64,000 bases of DNA, taken from NCBI RefSeq assembly GCF_018860915.1, contig NZ_JAHKQD010000053.1, forward strand, positions 124,001 through 188,000, read 5' to 3'. The DNA is from Colwellia sp. C2M11 (GTDB lineage Bacteria > Pseudomonadota > Gammaproteobacteria > Enterobacterales > Alteromonadaceae). The position numbers were made by a program, and so were the translations under genes. A model generated the notes under the pieces. The model was not told the origin of the DNA. It searched no databases and saw nothing but the letters and a program-made list of their open reading frames with translations. This document shows, piece after piece, positions 14,263-27,109 of the stretch. Every line of letters begins with the position of its first letter. Position 1 is the stretch's first letter.

Positions 14263-14540
14263 AATCGTTATGCTGTGTAGTTCAAGAGACTCAGGGTCTC
14301 AGCTTTATTCAACCGTACGTTTGGGATTCCGTATTAAGTGACCTACGGAATGACAGCGCTTGGTGATCATTCTGAACTTGATTCAGAATCCCAATCGTTA
14401 TGCTGTGTAGCTCAAAGGGCTCAGAATCCCTTTCTTATTCAACCACACGCGTGGGATTCCGTATTAAGTGACCTACGGAATAACGGCGCTTTGTCCGTTA
14501 TGCTGCACGCTTTGTCGCCATTCTGAATATTCTCCGTTAT
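14263..14540. repeat. Two tandem copies of a mosaic palindromic intergenic repeat
   Basis: Two units with a period of 130 bp begin with AATCGTTATGCTGTGTAG (14263 and 14393). Each carries the inverted repeat ATTCCGTA/TACGGAAT (14326-14351 and 14456-14481). The first also has ATTCTGAA/TTCAGAAT (14369-14389). The same modules occur at 19877-20060, 27171-27200, 28575-28595 and 57380-57510. It lies between convergent genes and carries no credible coding sequence. Confidence 0.85.
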
Positions 14541-14566: not shown

Positions 14567-17431
14567 TTAATGTCTAACAACCTCGCCTACTTTCTTTGTT
14601 GTTACTTTATCAACTAAGTAAATAATCGACTGATAATCAATACCCGCGTGTTGAGATAAGCCAATCTCACAGGTTCTGCTATTACTATAACCTGCGGTAC
14701 AACCTTGAGGTACTTGAGCTTTTAACGGCGCCAGTGCGTTGTCATTTAGCTCAGGCGTGGTAAACCCTTTATCGCCCGCGAAACCACAACATTGAATATG
14801 CTCAGGAATTACCACCTGAGTACTACAACGCTCGGCTAATTGTTGCATTTTTCCAGCTAAGCCCATTTTACTGCTAGAACAGGTAATGTGTAACATAATA
14901 GGTTCATCAACAGGAGTGAAGTTCAAATGATTAATCAAAACTTCTTCAACAAAACCAAAAGGTTCAAATAGTGAAAGCCCCCTAATTTTATCTTTATTTT
15001 CTAATAACATCGATTTACAAGGGCTGGTATCGATTAAAATAGGATACTTACCTTGCTCACTTAATATCGCTAACTTATCGAGCATTGCATTACTTTTTTG
15101 CTCTGCTTGTGAAAACATCCCTTTACTATTAAATGGCATACCACAACATTCGCCCGTAAAATCTGGACTAATAACATCAAATCCAGCTTTTTCTATCAAC
15201 GATAAAGTAACGTCTGTTAGCGAGCGCTGGTCTGTTGCCGTTAATGATTGCCCCATGTTGCGACTTGAGCAGCTTGGGATATAAACCACTTTAGGTCGAG
15301 AACCTGCTTCGTTAACATTGCTATTAGCTTTAATTTTCGTAGGATTATAGTGTGCTTTTTGTGGTATATATTTATTCCACAGAGGTAACTTATTTGCTGA
15401 AAGCTTTCTAATAGTACCTGTCACTCCTGCCATCACTTTATTACCCAATAAACGTTGGCCAAAGCTTGCGACTGCTAATGTCATTCGAGTTGTTTTTTCA
15501 ACTGTAGAGAAGTTATTAGCAAAGGCATTAGCCACACCTTGGTGACCTTCATTATTGCGATGACGAAGCTCTCTAATAAGGTCACCCGTATTAATACCGA
15601 CGGGGCAACGTTCAGCACACAAGCCTGTTGCAGCACAAGTATCGATACCTAAATAATTAAAGTCTTTTTTCAGCTCTGCTAACAATTCAGGGTTTTCATT
15701 AGTCGAAGTTAAACGACTAATTTCTCGATAACTGGTAATACGTTGACGCGGCGTGAAACTAAGGCCATTAGATGGACAGACAGGCTCACAAAAACCACAC
15801 TCTATACATTTATCAACAATAATATCTGCGGCGGGTAAGGCTTTTAAGTTGGTAATATGTGCATGAGCATTATCATTAATAATTACACCAGGATTAAGCA
15901 AACTTTGAGGATCAAACAACTGCTTTATTTGCTGCATTAATGCCAACCCTTCGCTGCCCCATTCTAGCTCAACAAAAGGGGCCATATTACGGCCAGTACC
16001 ATGTTCTGCCTTTAAAGAACCTTGGTAATCGACAGCAACAAGTTGACAAACATCATCCATAAATGACTGATAACGCTTTATTTCTTTTTCTGTTGAGAAG
16101 TCTTGAGTGAAAACAAAATGTAAGTTCCCTTCAAGAGCATGACCAAAAATAATTGCTTCATCATATTGATATTTAGTAAATAACAATTGCAAATCAGCAA
16201 CCCCATCAGCAAGCCTAGCAACAGGAAAAGCAACATCTTCAATAATTACAGTCGTTCCCGTTTCTCGAACAGCGCCAACAGCAGGAAAAGTGCCCTTTCT
16301 TATTGCCCACAATTGAGAATATTCACTCGCAACATCAGTAAATTTAATCGCATTGGTTTGTTCAAAATCAGCTAACATTAATTCAAGTTCAGCCACTTGT
16401 TGCCTTAATATTTCAGCGTTAGCTGCACAAGTTTCGATTAACAGGGCGCCAACATGTTCATCAAGCGTATTGATAAAGTCAGGCAAACCATCCATATCGC
16501 TAACCGAAGCTAACGCACGTCTATCCATCAACTCCACGGCTGAAACATTTGCACTAGCTAATGCAGAGACAGCATGACAAGTAATTTGCATAGTGGGGAA
16601 AAAAACTAAGGTTGATGCACGATATTTATGTTCAACAACCGTGTTATAAGTGATAGAAGAAATAAAGCCTAAGGTACCTTCAGAGCCGATCATTAAATGC
16701 GCTAAAATATCGATAGGATCCTCAAAATCCACTAACGAATTAATAGCATAACCAGTGGTGTTTTTTAATCTATATTTATGATTGATTAACTGGCGTAAAT
16801 TTTCATTCTTATTTGTTTCTAACGCCAAGCTTTTAATACCGCTTAACAAGATACTATGCGTTTTTCTAAATTCACTAACACTATCTTTATCGCCAGTATC
16901 TAACACGGCACCATCATGTAAAACAACACGAATACTATCTAAGGTGTGATAACTATTTTGTGCCACACCGCAGCACATACCACTAGCATTATTAGCAGCA
17001 ATACCTGCAACTTTACAGGTGTTAATGGAAGCAGGATCAGGTCCTATTTTTCGGCCATAAGGCAGTAAATATTTATTTGCATCTGCACCAATAACTCCAG
17101 GTCCTAATTTTATTTTTAATCCTAAATCGACTATTTGATGATTTCGCCAACTAGTGGTTAATAAAATAAGGATAGAGTCAGATTGAGCTTGCCCAGAAAG
17201 ACTAGTACCAGCAGCTCTAAAAGTAACCGGTAATTTAGCAATAGCAGCGTGATTTAATACTTTTACCACCTCCGCTTCGGTATCAAGTATTAATACTAAT
17301 TTAGGGACTAGTCGATAAAAGCTTGCATCAACCCCAAAAGCTAGCCGCTTGGCATAACTACTAATAATTCGTTCTTCAGGCAAGAAGCAAGCTAACATTT
17401 TCGCAAAGTGTTGGTACGGTGGAAGTAACAT
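14567..17431 (-). CDS. FAD/Fe-S D-lactate dehydrogenase-type oxidoreductase
   Basis: Membrane-associated flavoprotein that probably oxidises D-lactate (or a related 2-hydroxyacid) and passes electrons to quinone. An N-terminal FAD-binding domain has FRAAGTSLSGQ (about residue 73) and PYGRKIGPDPAS. An FAD-oxidase C-terminal domain follows to about 520. Two [4Fe-4S] ferredoxin motifs come next (CIECGFCEPVCP about 538, CAATGLCAERCP about 600). Two CCG cysteine domains follow (ECCGMPFNSKG about 760, QCCGFAGDKGF about 880). The 954-residue fusion matches the Dld-II enzyme I recall from Shewanella. The related YdiJ family, of uncertain substrate, is the main alternative. The gene is single and divergent from the U32 gene. 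Confidence 0.85.
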   Translation of the reverse strand: MLLPPYQHFAKMLACFLPEERIISSYAKRLAFGVDASFYRLVPKLVLILDTEAEVVKVLNHAAIAKLPVTFRAAGTSLSGQAQSDSILILLTTSWRNHQIVDLGLKIKLGPGVIGADANKYLLPYGRKIGPDPASINTCKVAGIAANNASGMCCGVAQNSYHTLDSIRVVLHDGAVLDTGDKDSVSEFRKTHSILLSGIKSLALETNKNENLRQLINHKYRLKNTTGYAINSLVDFEDPIDILAHLMIGSEGTLGFISSITYNTVVEHKYRASTLVFFPTMQITCHAVSALASANVSAVELMDRRALASVSDMDGLPDFINTLDEHVGALLIETCAANAEILRQQVAELELMLADFEQTNAIKFTDVASEYSQLWAIRKGTFPAVGAVRETGTTVIIEDVAFPVARLADGVADLQLLFTKYQYDEAIIFGHALEGNLHFVFTQDFSTEKEIKRYQSFMDDVCQLVAVDYQGSLKAEHGTGRNMAPFVELEWGSEGLALMQQIKQLFDPQSLLNPGVIINDNAHAHITNLKALPAADIIVDKCIECGFCEPVCPSNGLSFTPRQRITSYREISRLTSTNENPELLAELKKDFNYLGIDTCAATGLCAERCPVGINTGDLIRELRHRNNEGHQGVANAFANNFSTVEKTTRMTLAVASFGQRLLGNKVMAGVTGTIRKLSANKLPLWNKYIPQKAHYNPTKIKANSNVNEAGSRPKVVYIPSCSSRNMGQSLTATDQRSLTDVTLSLIEKAGFDVISPDFTGECCGMPFNSKGMFSQAEQKSNAMLDKLAILSEQGKYPILIDTSPCKSMLLENKDKIRGLSLFEPFGFVEEVLINHLNFTPVDEPIMLHITCSSSKMGLAGKMQQLAERCSTQVVIPEHIQCCGFAGDKGFTTPELNDNALAPLKAQVPQGCTAGYSNSRTCEIGLSQHAGIDYQSIIYLVDKVTTKKVGEVVRH

Positions 17432-20115: not shown

Positions 20116-22275
20116 TTAGCTTGAATGAGACTCAAAATCTTTCTTTTTTTGATTTTGAAGTAACATAATAAAAGAGCTAAACTCAATTGGCTTACTAAAA
20201 AAGTAACCTTGCACTGAGTTACATGAGTTTTGTTCAAGGAAGTCTAACTGTTCTTGAGTTTCAACACCTTCAGCAATAACCCCTAAATTTAAATTATGTG
20301 CCATAGCAATAACAGCTCTAACAATCGCTTTATCGTTATCATCACTAACAATATCTCTAACAAATGATCGATCAATTTTCAAAAAATCTAAAGGTAGTTT
20401 TTTTAAATACGCCAGCGAACTATAGCCAGTTCCAAAATCATCAATAGAGACACTTACACCAATAGCTCTTACTTTATTCAGTAATTTTTCAGTAATAGCA
20501 TAATCATCAATCATCACGCCTTCCGTGATTTCTAACTCTAATAAACATGGGTCTATTTTATTATTCTTAATACAAGCATGCAGATGAGGAAAAAGGTTTT
20601 CATCAAACACTTGAGCAGGTGACAGGTTCAGTGATATTTTAACTTTATGTCCCATTTTGTTAATTTTATCCACCATTTGACAAGCTGTATCAATTACCCA
20701 CTTACCAATAGTAATAATTAAGCCGCTTTTTTCAGCAATAGCAATAAAAGAGTCAGGAAACAGCATTCCTTTCGTAGGATGATTCCAGCGAATTAACGCC
20801 TCTGCTTTTACAATTTTATTAAGTTCTAAATCTATAATAGGTTGCAAAAACAATTCAAATTCATCATTTTTGATAGCTTCTCTTAGCTCATGCTCAACTT
20901 CAATAATAAGGCGCGATGCATCTTTCATAGACTGAGAATAAAACTGTAATGAATTAGCTTTTGATCTTTTACCGTTATAAGCACTTAAATCAACAAACTT
21001 CATTAATTCTTCAACACTATGTGCATCATGGGGGAAGTTAGCAGCACCTATACTTAAATTAACATTAAAGCTCTCTAATTCACTTGTTTGAAATGGCTCT
21101 CTGGTACAGTCAAGAATTCTTTCAACTACACCTTCACAACAAGCTTGATTATCGATATCAGTTAATATAATAGCAAATTCATCACCGCCTACCCTTGCGA
21201 TGAAATCAGATGTTTTAATACTACTTTTAATACGACCACTGACTTCAATAAGTAACTTATCTCCTTCATCATGACCATAGAATTCGTTATGACGCCTAAA
21301 ATCATTAACATCAACATACAATAAATAAAAAGGAATATTAGATATTATTTGTTTTTCCAATCTTTGCCAAAACGAAATTCGGTTAGGTAGTTGAGTTAAC
21401 AAATCCTGTAAATCACTTTTTTCATTTCGTTGTACTAAATATTTAATATTACTTATGTCATTAGCAAAAATAATCCAGTTCTTTATTTCATTTAAATCAT
21501 CTAAAACGGGATATAAAGCAACTTTTAACCATTTCAATGTCGATGGTGGCGACATCCAACATAGCTCGCCATCCCAACTAGATTTAGTAGCGATAATACG
21601 TTCATATTCTGGTAATTGATTTTTTAAAAGTTGTACAATAATATCTACAGGATTTGAAGACTCATGAGTTGAAGAGCCACCTTGTTCAAATAAATGTAAC
21701 GCAGCTGTATTAGCAATAATAGTCGTTAAATCACTTTTTGTAATAAGTACTGCAAAGCCGGCATTCTCAATTGCTTTCGTTAGCGCGGTAATAATATTTT
21801 CTTGTTCGTAAGGTTTATTAAAAATAGCGAGAATTCTTGTATGCAAATACTCATTTTGTTCTATTAAATGATCATTATAGAGAGAGAGTTCTCGAGCAGA
21901 CTGCATTGTACTTTGGCGAAGTGTAAAGTCTTCAGTTTGATTGCTGATAATCAGTAAACTTTGATCGTCTTGTTTAATTGCAATCGCTTCTAAATGTAAT
22001 TCTTTGTTGTTTGCAACAACTTCAGTCCAAAAGCCAGAGCGAACCCGATTATCTTCACTGCCATTCCATATTAGTTGCGCATCAATAAGAAAATCTTGTA
22101 AAAAAGGTGTGTTATCGTCAATACTAAAAACTTTTTGACTAGCAGAAAGAGGAAGTAATTCAGTTGCCCATAAGCAAGAGCCCCCAACAAGTTTAAAAAG
22201 ATTAAGACTACCCTCAACAGGTTCTATAATCACTTGTTGCATTGCATTGAGTACATTATTTAGTATCGAAGTCAT
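20116..22275 (-). CDS. PAS-GGDEF-EAL cyclic-di-GMP enzyme
   Basis: Predicted soluble enzyme of cyclic-di-GMP turnover. An N-terminal region of about 130 residues of unrecognised type (LVGGSCLWATELLPL) is followed by a PAS-like sensor (about 170-290). A GGDEF domain has VGGDEFAI (about 300-455). An EAL domain has EALIRW, LELEITEG, DDFGTGYSSLAYLK and IAEGVETQEQ (about 470-715). Both catalytic signatures look intact, so synthesis, breakdown or both are possible. I choose the ATG at 22275, 4 bp after the GTPase stop with AAGAGAG upstream, over an earlier ATG that overlaps the GTPase gene. It is the last gene of the GTPase operon. Confidence 0.9.
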   Translation of the reverse strand: MTSILNNVLNAMQQVIIEPVEGSLNLFKLVGGSCLWATELLPLSASQKVFSIDDNTPFLQDFLIDAQLIWNGSEDNRVRSGFWTEVVANNKELHLEAIAIKQDDQSLLIISNQTEDFTLRQSTMQSARELSLYNDHLIEQNEYLHTRILAIFNKPYEQENIITALTKAIENAGFAVLITKSDLTTIIANTAALHLFEQGGSSTHESSNPVDIIVQLLKNQLPEYERIIATKSSWDGELCWMSPPSTLKWLKVALYPVLDDLNEIKNWIIFANDISNIKYLVQRNEKSDLQDLLTQLPNRISFWQRLEKQIISNIPFYLLYVDVNDFRRHNEFYGHDEGDKLLIEVSGRIKSSIKTSDFIARVGGDEFAIILTDIDNQACCEGVVERILDCTREPFQTSELESFNVNLSIGAANFPHDAHSVEELMKFVDLSAYNGKRSKANSLQFYSQSMKDASRLIIEVEHELREAIKNDEFELFLQPIIDLELNKIVKAEALIRWNHPTKGMLFPDSFIAIAEKSGLIITIGKWVIDTACQMVDKINKMGHKVKISLNLSPAQVFDENLFPHLHACIKNNKIDPCLLELEITEGVMIDDYAITEKLLNKVRAIGVSVSIDDFGTGYSSLAYLKKLPLDFLKIDRSFVRDIVSDDNDKAIVRAVIAMAHNLNLGVIAEGVETQEQLDFLEQNSCNSVQGYFFSKPIEFSSFIMLLQNQKKKDFESHSS

Positions 22276-22279
22276 GCGA

Positions 22280-22774
22280 TTAACTCTCTTGCAGCAATTT
22301 AGCCAACTCAATAAACATGTTATCTACATTTGCACCGGTTTTAGCACTTGTATAGAAATGTAAATCAAACAAATCGTTATAATCTTCTAGCCCTTTATCT
22401 TCCCAATGCCAACTTGGTTGTAAATCACTTTTATTGATAGCCAGAATAGCAGGACATTTAGCAACTTTACGGGCGAGACTGTGAATCTCTAAACCTTCAA
22501 TTAAAGAGGTTGTGCGTGTTTGATCAGCCACAATAATATAGGCTGAGGCGCCACGTAAATAACGTTCTTGAAAAGCATTATAGCGATCATTACCTTCAAT
22601 ATCCCAAAGCATAAATTGCAGAGAATTATTTTCTAGCGTGACAACCTTTTTATCAATTTTAACACCGATAGTGGTTAGGTATTTTTCATTAAAAATGCCT
22701 TCCACAAATTGCTTAACTAAACTTGTTTTTCCTACGCTAGACGCACCGAGTAAACAAATTTTCTTTTGAATCAA
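22280..22774 (-). CDS. Ras/Rab-like small GTPase
   Basis: Small GTP-binding switch protein of the Ras superfamily, 164 residues with no extra domain. G1 is GASSVGKT (10-17), the G2 Thr is T35 in YLTTIG, G3 is WDIEG (57-61), G4 is NKSD (114-117) and G5 is TSAKTG (142-147). The position matching Ras Gln61 is Asn62, so intrinsic GTP hydrolysis may be slow or need a partner. There is no C-terminal Cys for lipid attachment. It lies between a roadblock-like/OmpA protein and a GGDEF-EAL enzyme in one operon. Prokaryotic Ras-like proteins of the MglA and Rup groups are the known relatives; the exact group was not determined. Confidence 0.9.
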   Translation of the reverse strand: MIQKKICLLGASSVGKTSLVKQFVEGIFNEKYLTTIGVKIDKKVVTLENNSLQFMLWDIEGNDRYNAFQERYLRGASAYIIVADQTRTTSLIEGLEIHSLARKVAKCPAILAINKSDLQPSWHWEDKGLEDYNDLFDLHFYTSAKTGANVDNMFIELAKLLQES

Positions 22775-22802
22775 AAGCCGTCTCCAATTTCTGTATAGTG
22801 CT

Positions 22803-22841
22803 GTTAAAATGCCAGTTGATATACGGCATATCCCTTTTAAC
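22803..22841 (-). other. Imperfect hairpin in the gap before the GTPase gene
   Basis: GTTAAAA (22803-22809) pairs with TTTTAAC (22835-22841), and ATGCC (22809-22813) with GGCAT (22825-22829), leaving a small bulge. It fills the only real gap (96 bp) in the four-gene operon and could set relative expression of the genes either side. Confidence 0.4.
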
Positions 22842-22870
22842 GTTTATTCTACATTTACATTTGTACTTGA

Positions 22871-24652
22871 TTACATTTCATTGTTTGTTTTTTCATCATT
22901 ACTTACATATAGCACGTTAAAGATAACTTTTCTTGCATTATTTTTTACTTTCATAATATCTATTTGCCCTAAACCTGTAACATACATTTGCGCTTTACTT
23001 AGCCCTAAAAGGTTTAAAGCATCACCCGTATTTTCTCCGCGTTGCCTACTTAATAACGTATTCTTAGCAATACTACCTGAATTATCACTACAGCCAATAA
23101 TGACTAGACCAACGTTTAAATCAAGTTGATCGGCTAATTGATTTAGTTGATGAAAGTATTGATAAAGTTGCTGCAGAGTTAATTGCATACTAGGTGTTAC
23201 ATCAGCACTAGCAACAGGAAACTCAAGTTGAATCGTTGATATTCTACCAACTAAATCTTTAAATATTTGCGCTTTAATCGCCTTACTTGTAATAGCTTCA
23301 TTAGCAAAAGGAGGCTTAATATCCTCTATTATTAAGTTTCTTTCTAACGTAAAACCAGCAGCCGTCAGTGCACTTAGTAGTTTTGCAGACTTTAATACCG
23401 CTAATGTCCCCGACAAGTGTAAAATTTTGCTATGCCACATCATGGTAATTTCAGGGTATTCGAGCAAAATTCTCTGTGCTCTAGTATTTAGAATTTCAAG
23501 GTCTAAAGAATGATAAAGTCGCTCAGTTAGTGATAATTGCTCAATAGTTAAATCATTTTTTTGTAACCAATCAGAAACAGAGATAGCATCAGGATCACGT
23601 AAAATATCAAGCACAACCTTATTATGATCTTGTACTTCAATATGATTAATAACAACACCTGACTCATGATCTAAAGTCATCAACTTATCGTTTAATACTT
23701 GATTTTCCCACCACTTTACTGTCTGAAAGCCAAGAATAATGATAAAAAATAAAACAGCTAACCAAGCAAACCAAGGTGTTTTGTTATTTTTAGGTTCAGT
23801 TGTTTTTTGCTCTGCTAATAAACAATCTCTCAGTAAATTTTCGGCAGTAACAAAGGCTTCATTATCGCCGTTAAACTGCATAAGCTCACTAGCATATAAA
23901 CTGTGAATACTTTCTAATATTATTTGTAGTTTATCACTAACTTTTTGCGGTGGTTTACCTGTTACCGCAGCTACAACCAAGGCATTAGGCCCAGGCTTTA
24001 TTAATAAGGTGAAATTATCGGTTGTCACCGTTTCTAGCTGTTCTTTTAATCCATCTTCATTATCTAAGAAAGAATCACCAACAAAGTCATTAATTGCCGT
24101 TAACATAGAAGAAATTAAATCAGCATCACTTTTCGCTGTGTTATTAAAATTAACCGAGTTAAGTAATAAACCTGTTTCTCGGTGGATCAAAAAAACATGT
24201 TCAACTCGATAGACAAATGTTTGTGAAGCAACATATTGGGAGAATTTAACCCCCGCTTGCCAAGCTTTAATACGCCAAGTTAACCCCTTAAATGTGAGAC
24301 TACTATCAATTAACTGATTTGTTTTTTCCATAAAATCAGTTAGAAAAGCTGTCACGGATTTTCTAACTAAACTGCCCATTAAGGGATAAAGAGAATTAAC
24401 TAATCTGTCACTATTATGTGCAACCGAATCTTCGACTGCATTTTCTACAATAGGCAATAAAACTTTATTAACTGAGCCATCTTTTTTTTGTCTATCATGT
24501 AGTGCTTCAGAAAGTACTTCACCCACAATAGTACGTGCTTCTTTTTGAATAGCGTCGGTTACCACATGACTGTTTTTACCCAGTATTAGCGATCTTAATT
24601 GTTCAAGTTGCTGCTGAGATTCAACTTGTTTGGCTTCGGTCGACTTCGACAT
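22871..24652 (-). CDS. Roadblock-like / single-TM / OmpA-domain envelope protein
   Basis: Predicted inner-membrane protein that links cytoplasm to cell wall. Residues 15-25 (LEQLRSLILG) match a motif in the co-operonic coiled-coil protein. Residues 81-100 read SDRLVNSLYPLMGSLVRKSV. About 148-265 (VFLIHRETGLLLNSV, DADLISSMLTAINDFVGDSF, GPNALVVAAV) resembles a roadblock/longin-type small-GTPase regulator fold. One membrane segment lies at 294-312. A periplasmic stretch with BON-like character leads to an OmpA peptidoglycan-binding domain (about 485-580, IIGCSDNSGS, LSRQRGENTGDAL). Its start overlaps the upstream stop (TAATG). The roadblock assignment is by pattern only. Confidence 0.78.
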   Translation of the reverse strand: MSKSTEAKQVESQQQLEQLRSLILGKNSHVVTDAIQKEARTIVGEVLSEALHDRQKKDGSVNKVLLPIVENAVEDSVAHNSDRLVNSLYPLMGSLVRKSVTAFLTDFMEKTNQLIDSSLTFKGLTWRIKAWQAGVKFSQYVASQTFVYRVEHVFLIHRETGLLLNSVNFNNTAKSDADLISSMLTAINDFVGDSFLDNEDGLKEQLETVTTDNFTLLIKPGPNALVVAAVTGKPPQKVSDKLQIILESIHSLYASELMQFNGDNEAFVTAENLLRDCLLAEQKTTEPKNNKTPWFAWLAVLFFIIILGFQTVKWWENQVLNDKLMTLDHESGVVINHIEVQDHNKVVLDILRDPDAISVSDWLQKNDLTIEQLSLTERLYHSLDLEILNTRAQRILLEYPEITMMWHSKILHLSGTLAVLKSAKLLSALTAAGFTLERNLIIEDIKPPFANEAITSKAIKAQIFKDLVGRISTIQLEFPVASADVTPSMQLTLQQLYQYFHQLNQLADQLDLNVGLVIIGCSDNSGSIAKNTLLSRQRGENTGDALNLLGLSKAQMYVTGLGQIDIMKVKNNARKVIFNVLYVSNDEKTNNEM

Positions 24653-25188
24653 TACAGCTGGTCATCTTCCAAGTTTGTTGCCATTGTCGCTAGCAACTTA
24701 GCCAGTGTTTTCCGGTCTGTTTTAGATGAGCTTAATTCATTTGATACCGCATCAAGGTGATTTTTAAGTTGCTCTAGTTGCTCATTAAAACCATTAGACA
24801 GTAAGGCACTTTCGCTGTTCAGCGCCTGTTCAATATCTTTAAAGTCTTGCTGTGTGGCTACGGTAAACATTTCAAATTCTGATACAAGATTGGTATGTTC
24901 TTTTTGCATACTCTCTTCATTGTCATCATGGCGTTTATCTACAAAATTTACTTGTTTTTCTATATTGTCTAACTGCTGACTAATATCTCTTTGTATTTTT
25001 TCTAAACGAATTGTAAACTTTCTCTCCTGTTCGTTGATGGCATGTTCCATATCGCTTCGTAATGTCGTTAGTTGTGTAATTAACTGCTGTTGGGCATCAC
25101 CAAAGACAATTTGTCTAAGTTGATCAAGTTCTCCAAGGGGGGTAATAGGCTCTTGTGCTGCTTTATCGTTTTTGTTTTTATTTGACAT
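24652..25188 (-). CDS. Coiled-coil protein, first gene of the GTPase operon
   Basis: No named family is recognised. Residues after about 20 read LDQLRQIVFGDAQQQL, matching the LEQLRSLILG motif at the N-terminus of the next gene product. The remainder (about 35-160) is almost all heptad-like, with many Glu, Gln, Lys and Asn residues, so it is probably a long cytoplasmic coiled coil. I start at the ATG at 25188 (GGAA upstream) rather than an in-frame TTG seven codons earlier. Its stop overlaps the start of the OmpA-domain gene, which implies translational coupling and perhaps a physical complex. Confidence 0.75.
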   Translation of the reverse strand: MSNKNKNDKAAQEPITPLGELDQLRQIVFGDAQQQLITQLTTLRSDMEHAINEQERKFTIRLEKIQRDISQQLDNIEKQVNFVDKRHDDNEESMQKEHTNLVSEFEMFTVATQQDFKDIEQALNSESALLSNGFNEQLEQLKNHLDAVSNELSSSKTDRKTLAKLLATMATNLEDDQL

Positions 25189-25570
25189 ACGAATATTCCA
25201 TTTAAGCAAAAATAGTGCGTTATATTTTTTGTATTCCAGTAAATTTAAATATACTTATCGAGATAGAGCTTTTTAAACTGATTTAAATTAATACTATAGC
25301 ACCACAATGATTATTATCTATACAGTATCCTAACTTTATTTTTTAAACTTACTTAATAAAGCTAACATTAAAATTAGCGCAACTATTGAAAAGTTTACTG
25401 CTATAGTTATGAGCGTCTTAATAGCTCTTTTAATAGCTCTACTTACCCATAATCAGTGTTTAAAATATAACAAATATATATAATTCAATTAGCTACATTA
25501 AAAAATATTGACTATAATGGCGTAGCAAAATAAATAAAACGAAGTTTCAAAGTTAACTAAAGGATAATAA
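25189..25570. other. Divergent promoter region, GTPase operon and chemoreceptor
   Basis: AT-rich spacer of 382 bp. On the minus strand TGCTATAGT (25293-25301) is an extended -10 for the GTPase operon. On the plus strand TATAAT (25513-25518) is a -10 for the chemoreceptor, with no clear -35. TTAATAGCTCT occurs twice 12 bp apart (25418-25428 and 25430-25440), a possible operator. No small gene or RNA is seen. Confidence 0.45.
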
Positions 25571-27109
25571 ATGGCTAATACAACCAACAAAGAACTCAAT
25601 TTTTCAAATGATGAACAATTAGTTTCTATCACCGACTTACAAGGAGATATTGTTTATGCAAATGAAGAGTTCTGTCGGGTAGCTGGCTATACTTTAGAAG
25701 AACTTAAAGGACAACATCACAATATTGTTCGCCACCCGAACATGCCAAAAGAAGCGTTTGCTGATATGTGGAAGAAGTTAAAAAATGGTGAATCTTGGCG
25801 TGGTATGATTAAAAATCGTTGTAAAAATGGCGATTATTATTGGGTAGATGCCTACGTAACCCCTTTATCAGAAGGAGGTAGAATTACCGGTTATCAATCA
25901 GTCAGGGTAAAACCCACGACTCAACAAAAAAATGATGCTCAAAATTTTTATGATAAATTAAATGCTCAAAAAACTGTGACAGATTTTCACGCAAACACAA
26001 AATTAAAACGTCTTATTATCGGACTTATTCTCGCCACTTCCCTTTTATTTTCTTTATTATATTTAGACTCATATATCACCGCAGTTATTATTTTGTTTAA
26101 TATCATGGCCACAGCACTTATTTTTTCTGAAGAATTATTTACCTTTCCAAACTATGTAGAAGAAATTAAAAAACGATCTGATAGTCCATCTCGCTTTATT
26201 TTTACCGGTAAGGGCTTAACCAATATAACGAAATATCAAACTACCTTATTGCAAGCGCGTATACGTACAGTTCTAGGTCGTAGTTATGACGCAGGAAAAA
26301 TATTATCAGGTCAAGCGAATGCTTTAAAGGTAGCCTCAAACGAAATGCTGACAGGAACTGCCAATATTAATCAACAATTAGAGCAATTCTCTACTGCTAT
26401 TGGTGAAATGAGTGGCACGATTAATAATGTTAGTGAAAATACGGTATCGACCCATGATAAAGTAACACAAGTTCAACAAGAATGTGACGATGCGACCAAT
26501 TTAGTAACAAACAATCAGAAAAGAATGAAGAGCCTCGCTAATGATGTTCATTCTGCTGCAAACAGTGCTGAGAGTTTAGTGCTCGATGTTGATAAAATTT
26601 CAGGAATCATGAGTGAGATTCAAGGTATTGCTGATCAAACTAATTTACTAGCTCTTAATGCTGCAATTGAAGCAGCAAGAGCTGGAGAGCAAGGACGAGG
26701 CTTTGCTGTGGTTGCCGATGAAGTTAGAACATTAGCGAGTAGAACTCAAGATGCAACCGGAGATATACAACGTTCAGTGTTAGAATTACAAAAAACTTTA
26801 CAAGAGTGGAGTAAAGTAATGCTAGTGAGTAAGGATAGTGCTGAAGCATGCTCTGCTAATACATTAATTATTAAACAAGCTATCGAAAATATCATGAACA
26901 GTATTGGTGATGTCAGTGATATGACCGCACAAATATCAACCGCTACAGAAGAACAAAGCGTGGTGTCTGAGCAGATGAATAAGCAAATTACAGATATAGA
27001 TATTATTTCAAAAGAAAATGAAATGCTATGTAATAAAGTAAGTTTAAGTGGAGAAAATGTTAACAAAAGTGCCAAAGAAATCGAAGAATTGAGTACTACA
27101 TTCCACTAA
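25571..27109 (+). CDS. Methyl-accepting chemotaxis protein with Aer-type PAS domain
   Basis: Chemoreceptor that signals to CheA/CheW. An N-terminal cytoplasmic PAS domain (about 10-120, [52 protein letters not shown]) matches the Aer type, which senses redox or energy state via bound FAD. Two close hydrophobic segments (about 147-185) form a membrane hairpin with almost no periplasmic part. The signalling tip reads [20 protein letters not shown] followed by [12 protein letters not shown] (about 355-390). At 512 residues it is near Aer length (506). ATG follows AAAGGATAATAA. It is divergent from the GTPase operon. Confidence 0.92.

Follow-up and report, generated by a model that had tools for sequence, protein, structure and literature searches.

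Most of what is known about bacterial Ras-type switches comes from MglA. From genome comparisons, Wuichet and Søgaard-Andersen (2014) named a further GTPase neighbourhood Group 1 Rup, in which, according to the available text of their paper (PMC4316618), the GTPase is accompanied by exactly three conserved neighbours. One neighbour is a coiled-coil protein. Another has an unknown domain and, in many cases, a membrane helix and then an OmpA domain. The third is an output protein, either a diguanylate cyclase/phosphodiesterase or a histidine kinase, with an invariant N-terminal glutamine. The same text describes the Group 1 Rup GTPases as lacking the G3 glutamine, which the authors suggest may be supplied in trans, and states that no Rup protein had been experimentally characterized as of 2014. 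A later paper cites the group in its available text (PMC4915359); no later functional study of it was found in the accessible literature, subscription papers lying mostly outside the search.

The locus described here occupies positions 20116-25188 of a 64,000-nucleotide stretch of the Colwellia sp. C2M11 genome, a stretch called the window below. It consists of four tightly packed genes, all on the minus strand, as are all features located within them. In order of transcription, the genes encode a coiled-coil protein, called the coil protein below (24652-25188; 178 amino acids from an ATG, with a TTG at 25209 as an alternative start), an OmpA-domain envelope protein (22871-24652; 593 amino acids), a Ras-like GTPase (22280-22774; 164 amino acids from a TTG start) and a PAS-GGDEF-EAL output protein (20116-22275; 719 amino acids from an ATG, or 731 from an upstream TTG). 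The stop of the coil gene and the start of the OmpA gene overlap by one base (TAATG at 24652). The OmpA and GTPase genes are separated by 96 bp, and the GTPase stop is followed after 4 bp by the ATG of the output gene. A promoter and terminator scan of the operon gave nothing above shuffled sequences.

In every feature compared with the available text of PMC4316618, this locus is a Group 1 Rup system. The GTPase is Ras-like, with motifs G1 to G5, a G3 aspartate and no G3 glutamine; one neighbour is a coiled-coil protein, another combines an unknown domain, a membrane helix and an OmpA domain, and the output protein carries the invariant N-terminal glutamine. Nothing in the window departs from the group as presented there. 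The preliminary description of this DNA knew of no described function for the set, but the set itself is in the literature; a new kind of system was rejected as an interpretation, since the neighbourhood is already described. The available text makes no mention, for Group 1 Rup, of a roadblock-like region, a motif shared between two of the proteins, a PAS fold, HD-GYP or cyclase outputs, or the relative conservation of EAL and GGDEF domains.

Relatives confirmed in a scan of named genomes number 508; the 79 loci compared here come from the best 80 of them and are not a random sample. In 73 of the 79, the coil protein, OmpA protein, GTPase and output N-terminal domain are encoded by near neighbours on the same strand, in that order; the coil protein is found in all 79, and the GTPase and the output N-terminal domain in 76 each. 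Gene order is conserved far beyond chance, and this synteny check bears out the earlier proposal of a conserved four-gene unit. Because the four flanking window genes compared (that at 14567-17431 and those for a U32 peptidase, a PAS-MCP and a lytic transglycosylase-like protein) have no match in the 79 loci at E <= 1e-20, the unit is taken to be these four genes. Three of the six exceptions (L081, L100 and L108) are without a recognised output N-terminal domain, and from the other three (L091, L094 and L104) the GTPase is missing, with a Rup-type GTPase present elsewhere in each genome. A further 27 loci from the class (L128-L154) contain the coil protein in 24 cases, the GTPase in 24 and the output N-terminal domain in 21; their flanks are only 1.5 kb, and some of the misses are genes cut by the locus ends. 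Near-identical named sequences were thinned before the alignments designated A3, A4 and A7. At one locus, L115, a stand-alone 172-residue output N-terminal domain without an enzyme part follows a displaced GTPase gene, and is possibly a free regulator.

Within the order, a query made of the cytoplasmic and membrane portions of the envelope protein matches 21 of 394 genomes at E <= 0.001; within the class, an alignment of the whole envelope protein matches 29 of 369 at 1e-20, both counts including the own genome. Nine of 41 near relatives match, four of them through the OmpA domain only (E near 1e-4). Some 5-8% of the genomes sampled in the order and class carry Group 1 Rup systems, which also occur in several other phyla. 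The named relatives are in Gammaproteobacteria and also in records titled Latescibacterota, Coatesbacteria, Gemmatimonadota and Cyanobacteria, with further ones in Acidobacteria/Pyrinomonadaceae, Desulfobacteraceae and Verrucomicrobiae; several of these records are metagenome bins. Some envelope genes are broken. At L006, L011 and L012 (genome G009), L027 and L034 (G315) and L056, the envelope gene lies in two or three frames while the GTPase gene is open, and at L056 the coil gene is split too; recent decay and assembly error are both possible. At L081, an Alteromonas profundi record, the coil, envelope and GTPase genes are present, and no recognised output gene follows the GTPase. The patchy distribution, these broken genes and the missing output at L081 are what one would expect if the four genes were co-transcribed remnants of a dispensable, decaying unit. 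Set against the retention of four genes in order in most loci, across several phyla and with changing flanks, and of catalytic and motif residues, this explanation is highly improbable.

The GTPase matches Pfam Ras (E 5.7e-28) and its nearest solved structures in a PDB search are Rab5 proteins, as its earlier assignment to the Ras/Rab type had anticipated. A paralogue search found one GTPase of this type in the own genome. It had also been called complete from G1 to G5, which stands except for one residue: G1, G2, G4 and G5 are complete, but G3 (22589-22606) reads W-D-I-E-G-N and therefore has Asn where Ras has its catalytic Gln61. Glutamine at this position is found in one of 117 distinct GTPases (that of locus L040), or one of 129 alignment rows, across which G1, G4 and the Asp and Gly of G3 are invariant.

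Like MglA/MglB, the locus pairs a Ras-like GTPase with a possible roadblock-type partner. MglA, however, has Thr in place of the G3 Asp (PMC3000849, available text), whereas Asp is present here in 129 of 129 rows and the threonine of the MglA family is not seen; the partner here is a membrane/OmpA protein. A search for PF03259 (MglB/Robl_LC7) gave no match at E <= 0.1 in the own genome, with control genomes positive. On the strength of the G3 Asp and the lack of PF03259 in the own genome, an MglA-type system was rejected. Actinobacterial conservons (CvnA-D) are similar in being four-gene GTPase signalling operons, but combine an MglA-type GTPase with a histidine kinase, an MglB-type protein and a CvnC protein, and none of these last three was found here in that form. 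Eukaryotic Rab proteins with longin/roadblock GEFs offer another likeness, given the Rab5 structures and the possible longin/roadblock partner; the differences are the missing G3 glutamine, the bacterial envelope setting and the c-di-GMP output.

The envelope protein is predicted to consist of a helical N-terminus, a roadblock/longin-like region, a membrane helix, a periplasmic region and an OmpA-type domain. Its AlphaFold2 model has a mean pLDDT of 83.8 and a pTM of 0.48; the long N-terminal helices are of low confidence and the periplasmic region is mixed. A hydrophobic stretch at about residues 293-316 (23705-23776) marks the membrane segment, modelled as a helix at 294-325. The peptidoglycan-binding OmpA-type domain at residues 478-572 (22937-23221) is recognised by Pfam (28.5 bits, cut-off 27.2), Foldseek and alignment, and Pfam OmpA is found in 65 of 66 envelope-protein relatives. 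Asp523 and Arg538 are at what we take to be the usual ligand positions, as in OmpA/Pal structures. The model and the Pfam match agree with the preliminary description of the GTPase's partner, with its single membrane segment and its OmpA domain, which lies at the C-terminus.

The same description placed a roadblock/longin-like region on the cytoplasmic side, and for this part the evidence is mixed. In the AlphaFold2 model, residues 137-252 (23897-24244) run helix-strand-strand-helix-strand-strand-strand-helix, an order that fits the roadblock fold and speaks for the assignment. In PDB profile searches, the Roadblock/LC7 chain 9jue_D ranks second with alignment A5 (E 0.33) and first with the wider A6, at a non-significant E of 0.095. 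Compared with a profile of 35 Roadblock domains, A6 gives P 4.6e-4 (reversed controls 0.0057 and 0.02), while the narrower A5 gives P 0.028, not better than its reversed controls (0.0045 and 0.03). Thus, the choice of alignment matters, A5 having failed where A6 did better against the controls. Also on the negative side, no Pfam Robl_LC7 match is listed for the roadblock-like regions of 44 members, and the 50 Foldseek matches listed for the whole envelope model are mainly OmpA-type domains, with no roadblock protein among them. Pfam and NCBIfam scans of the region in the 44 relatives gave scattered matches in one to three members each; a single weak match to Fuz_longin_1 (E 0.049) was set aside as no evidence on its own. 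The region itself is conserved among relatives. Overall, we regard the roadblock/longin assignment as probable; if true, it would link Rup GTPases to the way in which MglA and eukaryotic Rabs are regulated.

In the output protein (20116-22275), a PAS-like domain, a helix and a second PAS-like domain precede the GGDEF and EAL domains. A model of residues 1-300 (mean pLDDT 85.5, pTM 0.59) shows, after the PAS-like N-terminal domain, a long helix that starts at residue 114 and then the second PAS-like domain. Foldseek with the N-terminal model returns PAS and LOV proteins, and the PAS-like domain with its exit helix is assigned to residues 1-153 (21817-22275); the Pfam PAS match at residues 175-275 scores 17.7 bits, short of the cut-off of 27. 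Within the exit helix, Gln125 (21901-21903) is a candidate in-trans catalytic glutamine, and we infer that it is the residue of the sequence logo in PMC4316618. Among the distinct outputs covering this column, 102 of 104 have Gln and two have Lys, a count that excludes 3 of 107 cut at locus ends; overlapping own-genome loci and loci already in the set were also left out. A divergent second N-terminal domain family, mostly from other lineages and joined to the first because two proteins match both profiles, has Gln in 18 of 18. When 67 output proteins of several enzyme classes are aligned, this is the sole column conserved at 90% or more. The alignment includes L100, where a PP2C follows the GTPase; it has no recognised N-terminal domain, its Gln in this column is a chance match, and it was left out of the distinct-sequence counts. 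The PAS-like nature of the N-terminal domain and a conserved exit-helix glutamine that survives enzyme swaps are new here.

The two lysines belong to the outputs of L094 and L104, whose GTPase gene now adjoins a different output with Gln; the two look closely related, so the joint loss of Gln125 and GTPase is probably one event. L091 retains Gln125 although the GTPase gene is not adjacent. The idea that Gln125 is lost wherever the GTPase is lost was dropped, given this and the Rup-type GTPases elsewhere in these three genomes. Nor are the G3 and output glutamines mutually exclusive, since L040 has both. The cyanobacterial genome G419 has a divergent second copy (L124), whose GTPase has His in G3 and is preceded by an envelope-protein relative and followed by a PAS histidine kinase-like protein; His was also read by eye at about the Gln125 place of this next protein.

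In our preferred interpretation, Gln125 would stand in for the absent Gln61 of the GTPase, and engagement of the effector would also end the signal. Gln125 could instead be a structural residue. One such alternative makes the roadblock-like region the GAP, as MglB is for MglA, and leaves Gln125 with no more than a structural or signalling part in the PAS exit helix. In its favour, the related MglA is regulated by roadblock proteins, the region is in the same operon and itself conserved, and helix junctions after PAS domains often hold conserved signalling residues. The unique conservation of Gln125 and its persistence in the divergent second family count against this alternative, as does the absence of Gln among the 18 positions that are invariant in the envelope-protein alignment; we consider it unlikely.

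The enzyme part of the window protein has a GGDEF domain with an intact motif (20953-21408; Pfam GGDEF 3e-34) and an EAL domain with its catalytic residues present (20188-20889; Pfam EAL 1e-78). Pfam domains among the 67 outputs are GGDEF (45), EAL (45), HisKA (8), HATPase_c (7), HD_5 (6), class III cyclase (2) and PP2C (1), in a tally where several C-terminal parts are cut by locus ends. HD-GYP proteins are c-di-GMP phosphodiesterases, and two of the six HD_5 outputs show the HD...GYP pattern. The EAL residues checked, which we presume to be the catalytic ones, are each present in 43 to 45 of the 45 EAL proteins and all present in the window protein, whereas the GGDEF motif is exact in 22 of 45 and altered in 23, with the inhibitory-site Arg in three. 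This contrast is new here, and points to c-di-GMP breakdown as the likely conserved output. The earlier statement that the system adjusts c-di-GMP can thus be sharpened to 'probably breaks down'.

Such interchangeable outputs would also suit a recruitment domain, and MglA, in the literature text available to us, sets polarity. The GTPase could then be a localiser that places any output enzyme at a wall platform, at the pole or septum, with enzyme activity independent of nucleotide. We judge this unlikely, as the position of the conserved residue in the exit helix seems better suited to transmission into the output than to mere docking.

The coil protein, whose coiled-coil character was judged from sequence, has two conserved ends and a variable middle. 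Across 79 aligned coil proteins (that of the window and 78 from named loci), the N-terminal F and G are present in all, and the C-terminal consensus K-x-D-R has K in 79, D in 78 and R in 75; in the window, these ends are LDQLRQIVFG (25099-25128; alignment and matrix scan) and KTDR (24712-24723; alignment). The envelope protein has a similar N-terminal motif, LEQLRSLILG (24578-24607), which scores 8.1 with a matrix of the coil motif, against -2.5 for the runner-up site. The common form is L-x-x-(L/I)-R-x-(I/L)-(V/L)-(F/L)-G; with 79 of each protein, R, F and G are present in 76, 79 and 79 coil proteins, and R and G in 74 and 70 envelope proteins, the broken gene of L056 being excluded. The aligned N-terminal site is the best matrix window in 59 of 66 envelope proteins, and the seven failures include L035, where the ORF call starts after the motif site. 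Among 3133 other ORFs, 6 reach a score of 6, roughly the median for envelope proteins, and one reaches 8. The motif shared by the coil and OmpA proteins is new here; the coil protein may dock by both ends.

Putting these elements together, we propose a switch, anchored in the envelope and built on a Ras-type GTPase, that controls a c-di-GMP phosphodiesterase; we put the chances that this model is right at about even. The envelope protein would be fixed to peptidoglycan through its OmpA domain, and its cytoplasmic roadblock/longin-like region would serve as a platform where the GTPase is bound and its nucleotide state controlled. Once loaded with GTP, the GTPase would dock on the output protein, at the PAS-like domain and exit helix, altering the coiled-coil geometry and switching the EAL phosphodiesterase so that c-di-GMP is lowered near the wall site. 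The coil protein, conserved at both ends and resembling the envelope protein at one of them, may bridge the parts. The model is supported in that the four genes and their hallmarks equal those of the published group, as far as its available text goes, with Gln61 lost, Gln125 kept and the EAL domain intact. A more specific version, in which the effector is its own GAP, Gln125 completing the GTPase in trans, and in which a cryptic roadblock/longin domain, tied across the membrane to peptidoglycan, loads the GTPase, is unlikely taken as a whole. If true, each activation would be self-terminating, and the system would be a portable timer linking the wall to a second messenger, in use with at least four enzyme classes. 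With the conserved output glutamine, the phosphodiesterase bias and the shared motif, what was a vague hypothesis from genome context can be addressed with specific assays.

Two other features of the window were noticed. A PAS-containing chemoreceptor gene (25571-27109) is divergent from the operon and was not seen in the loci of the 79 relatives. A palindromic 31-base repeat (TTCCGTATTAA....CCTACGGAATGA) has five copies in the window with up to two mismatches (at 14327, 14457, 19878, 20027 and 57393); its exact core has four copies in the genome, on one strand throughout, and two of the five window copies are just downstream of the operon.
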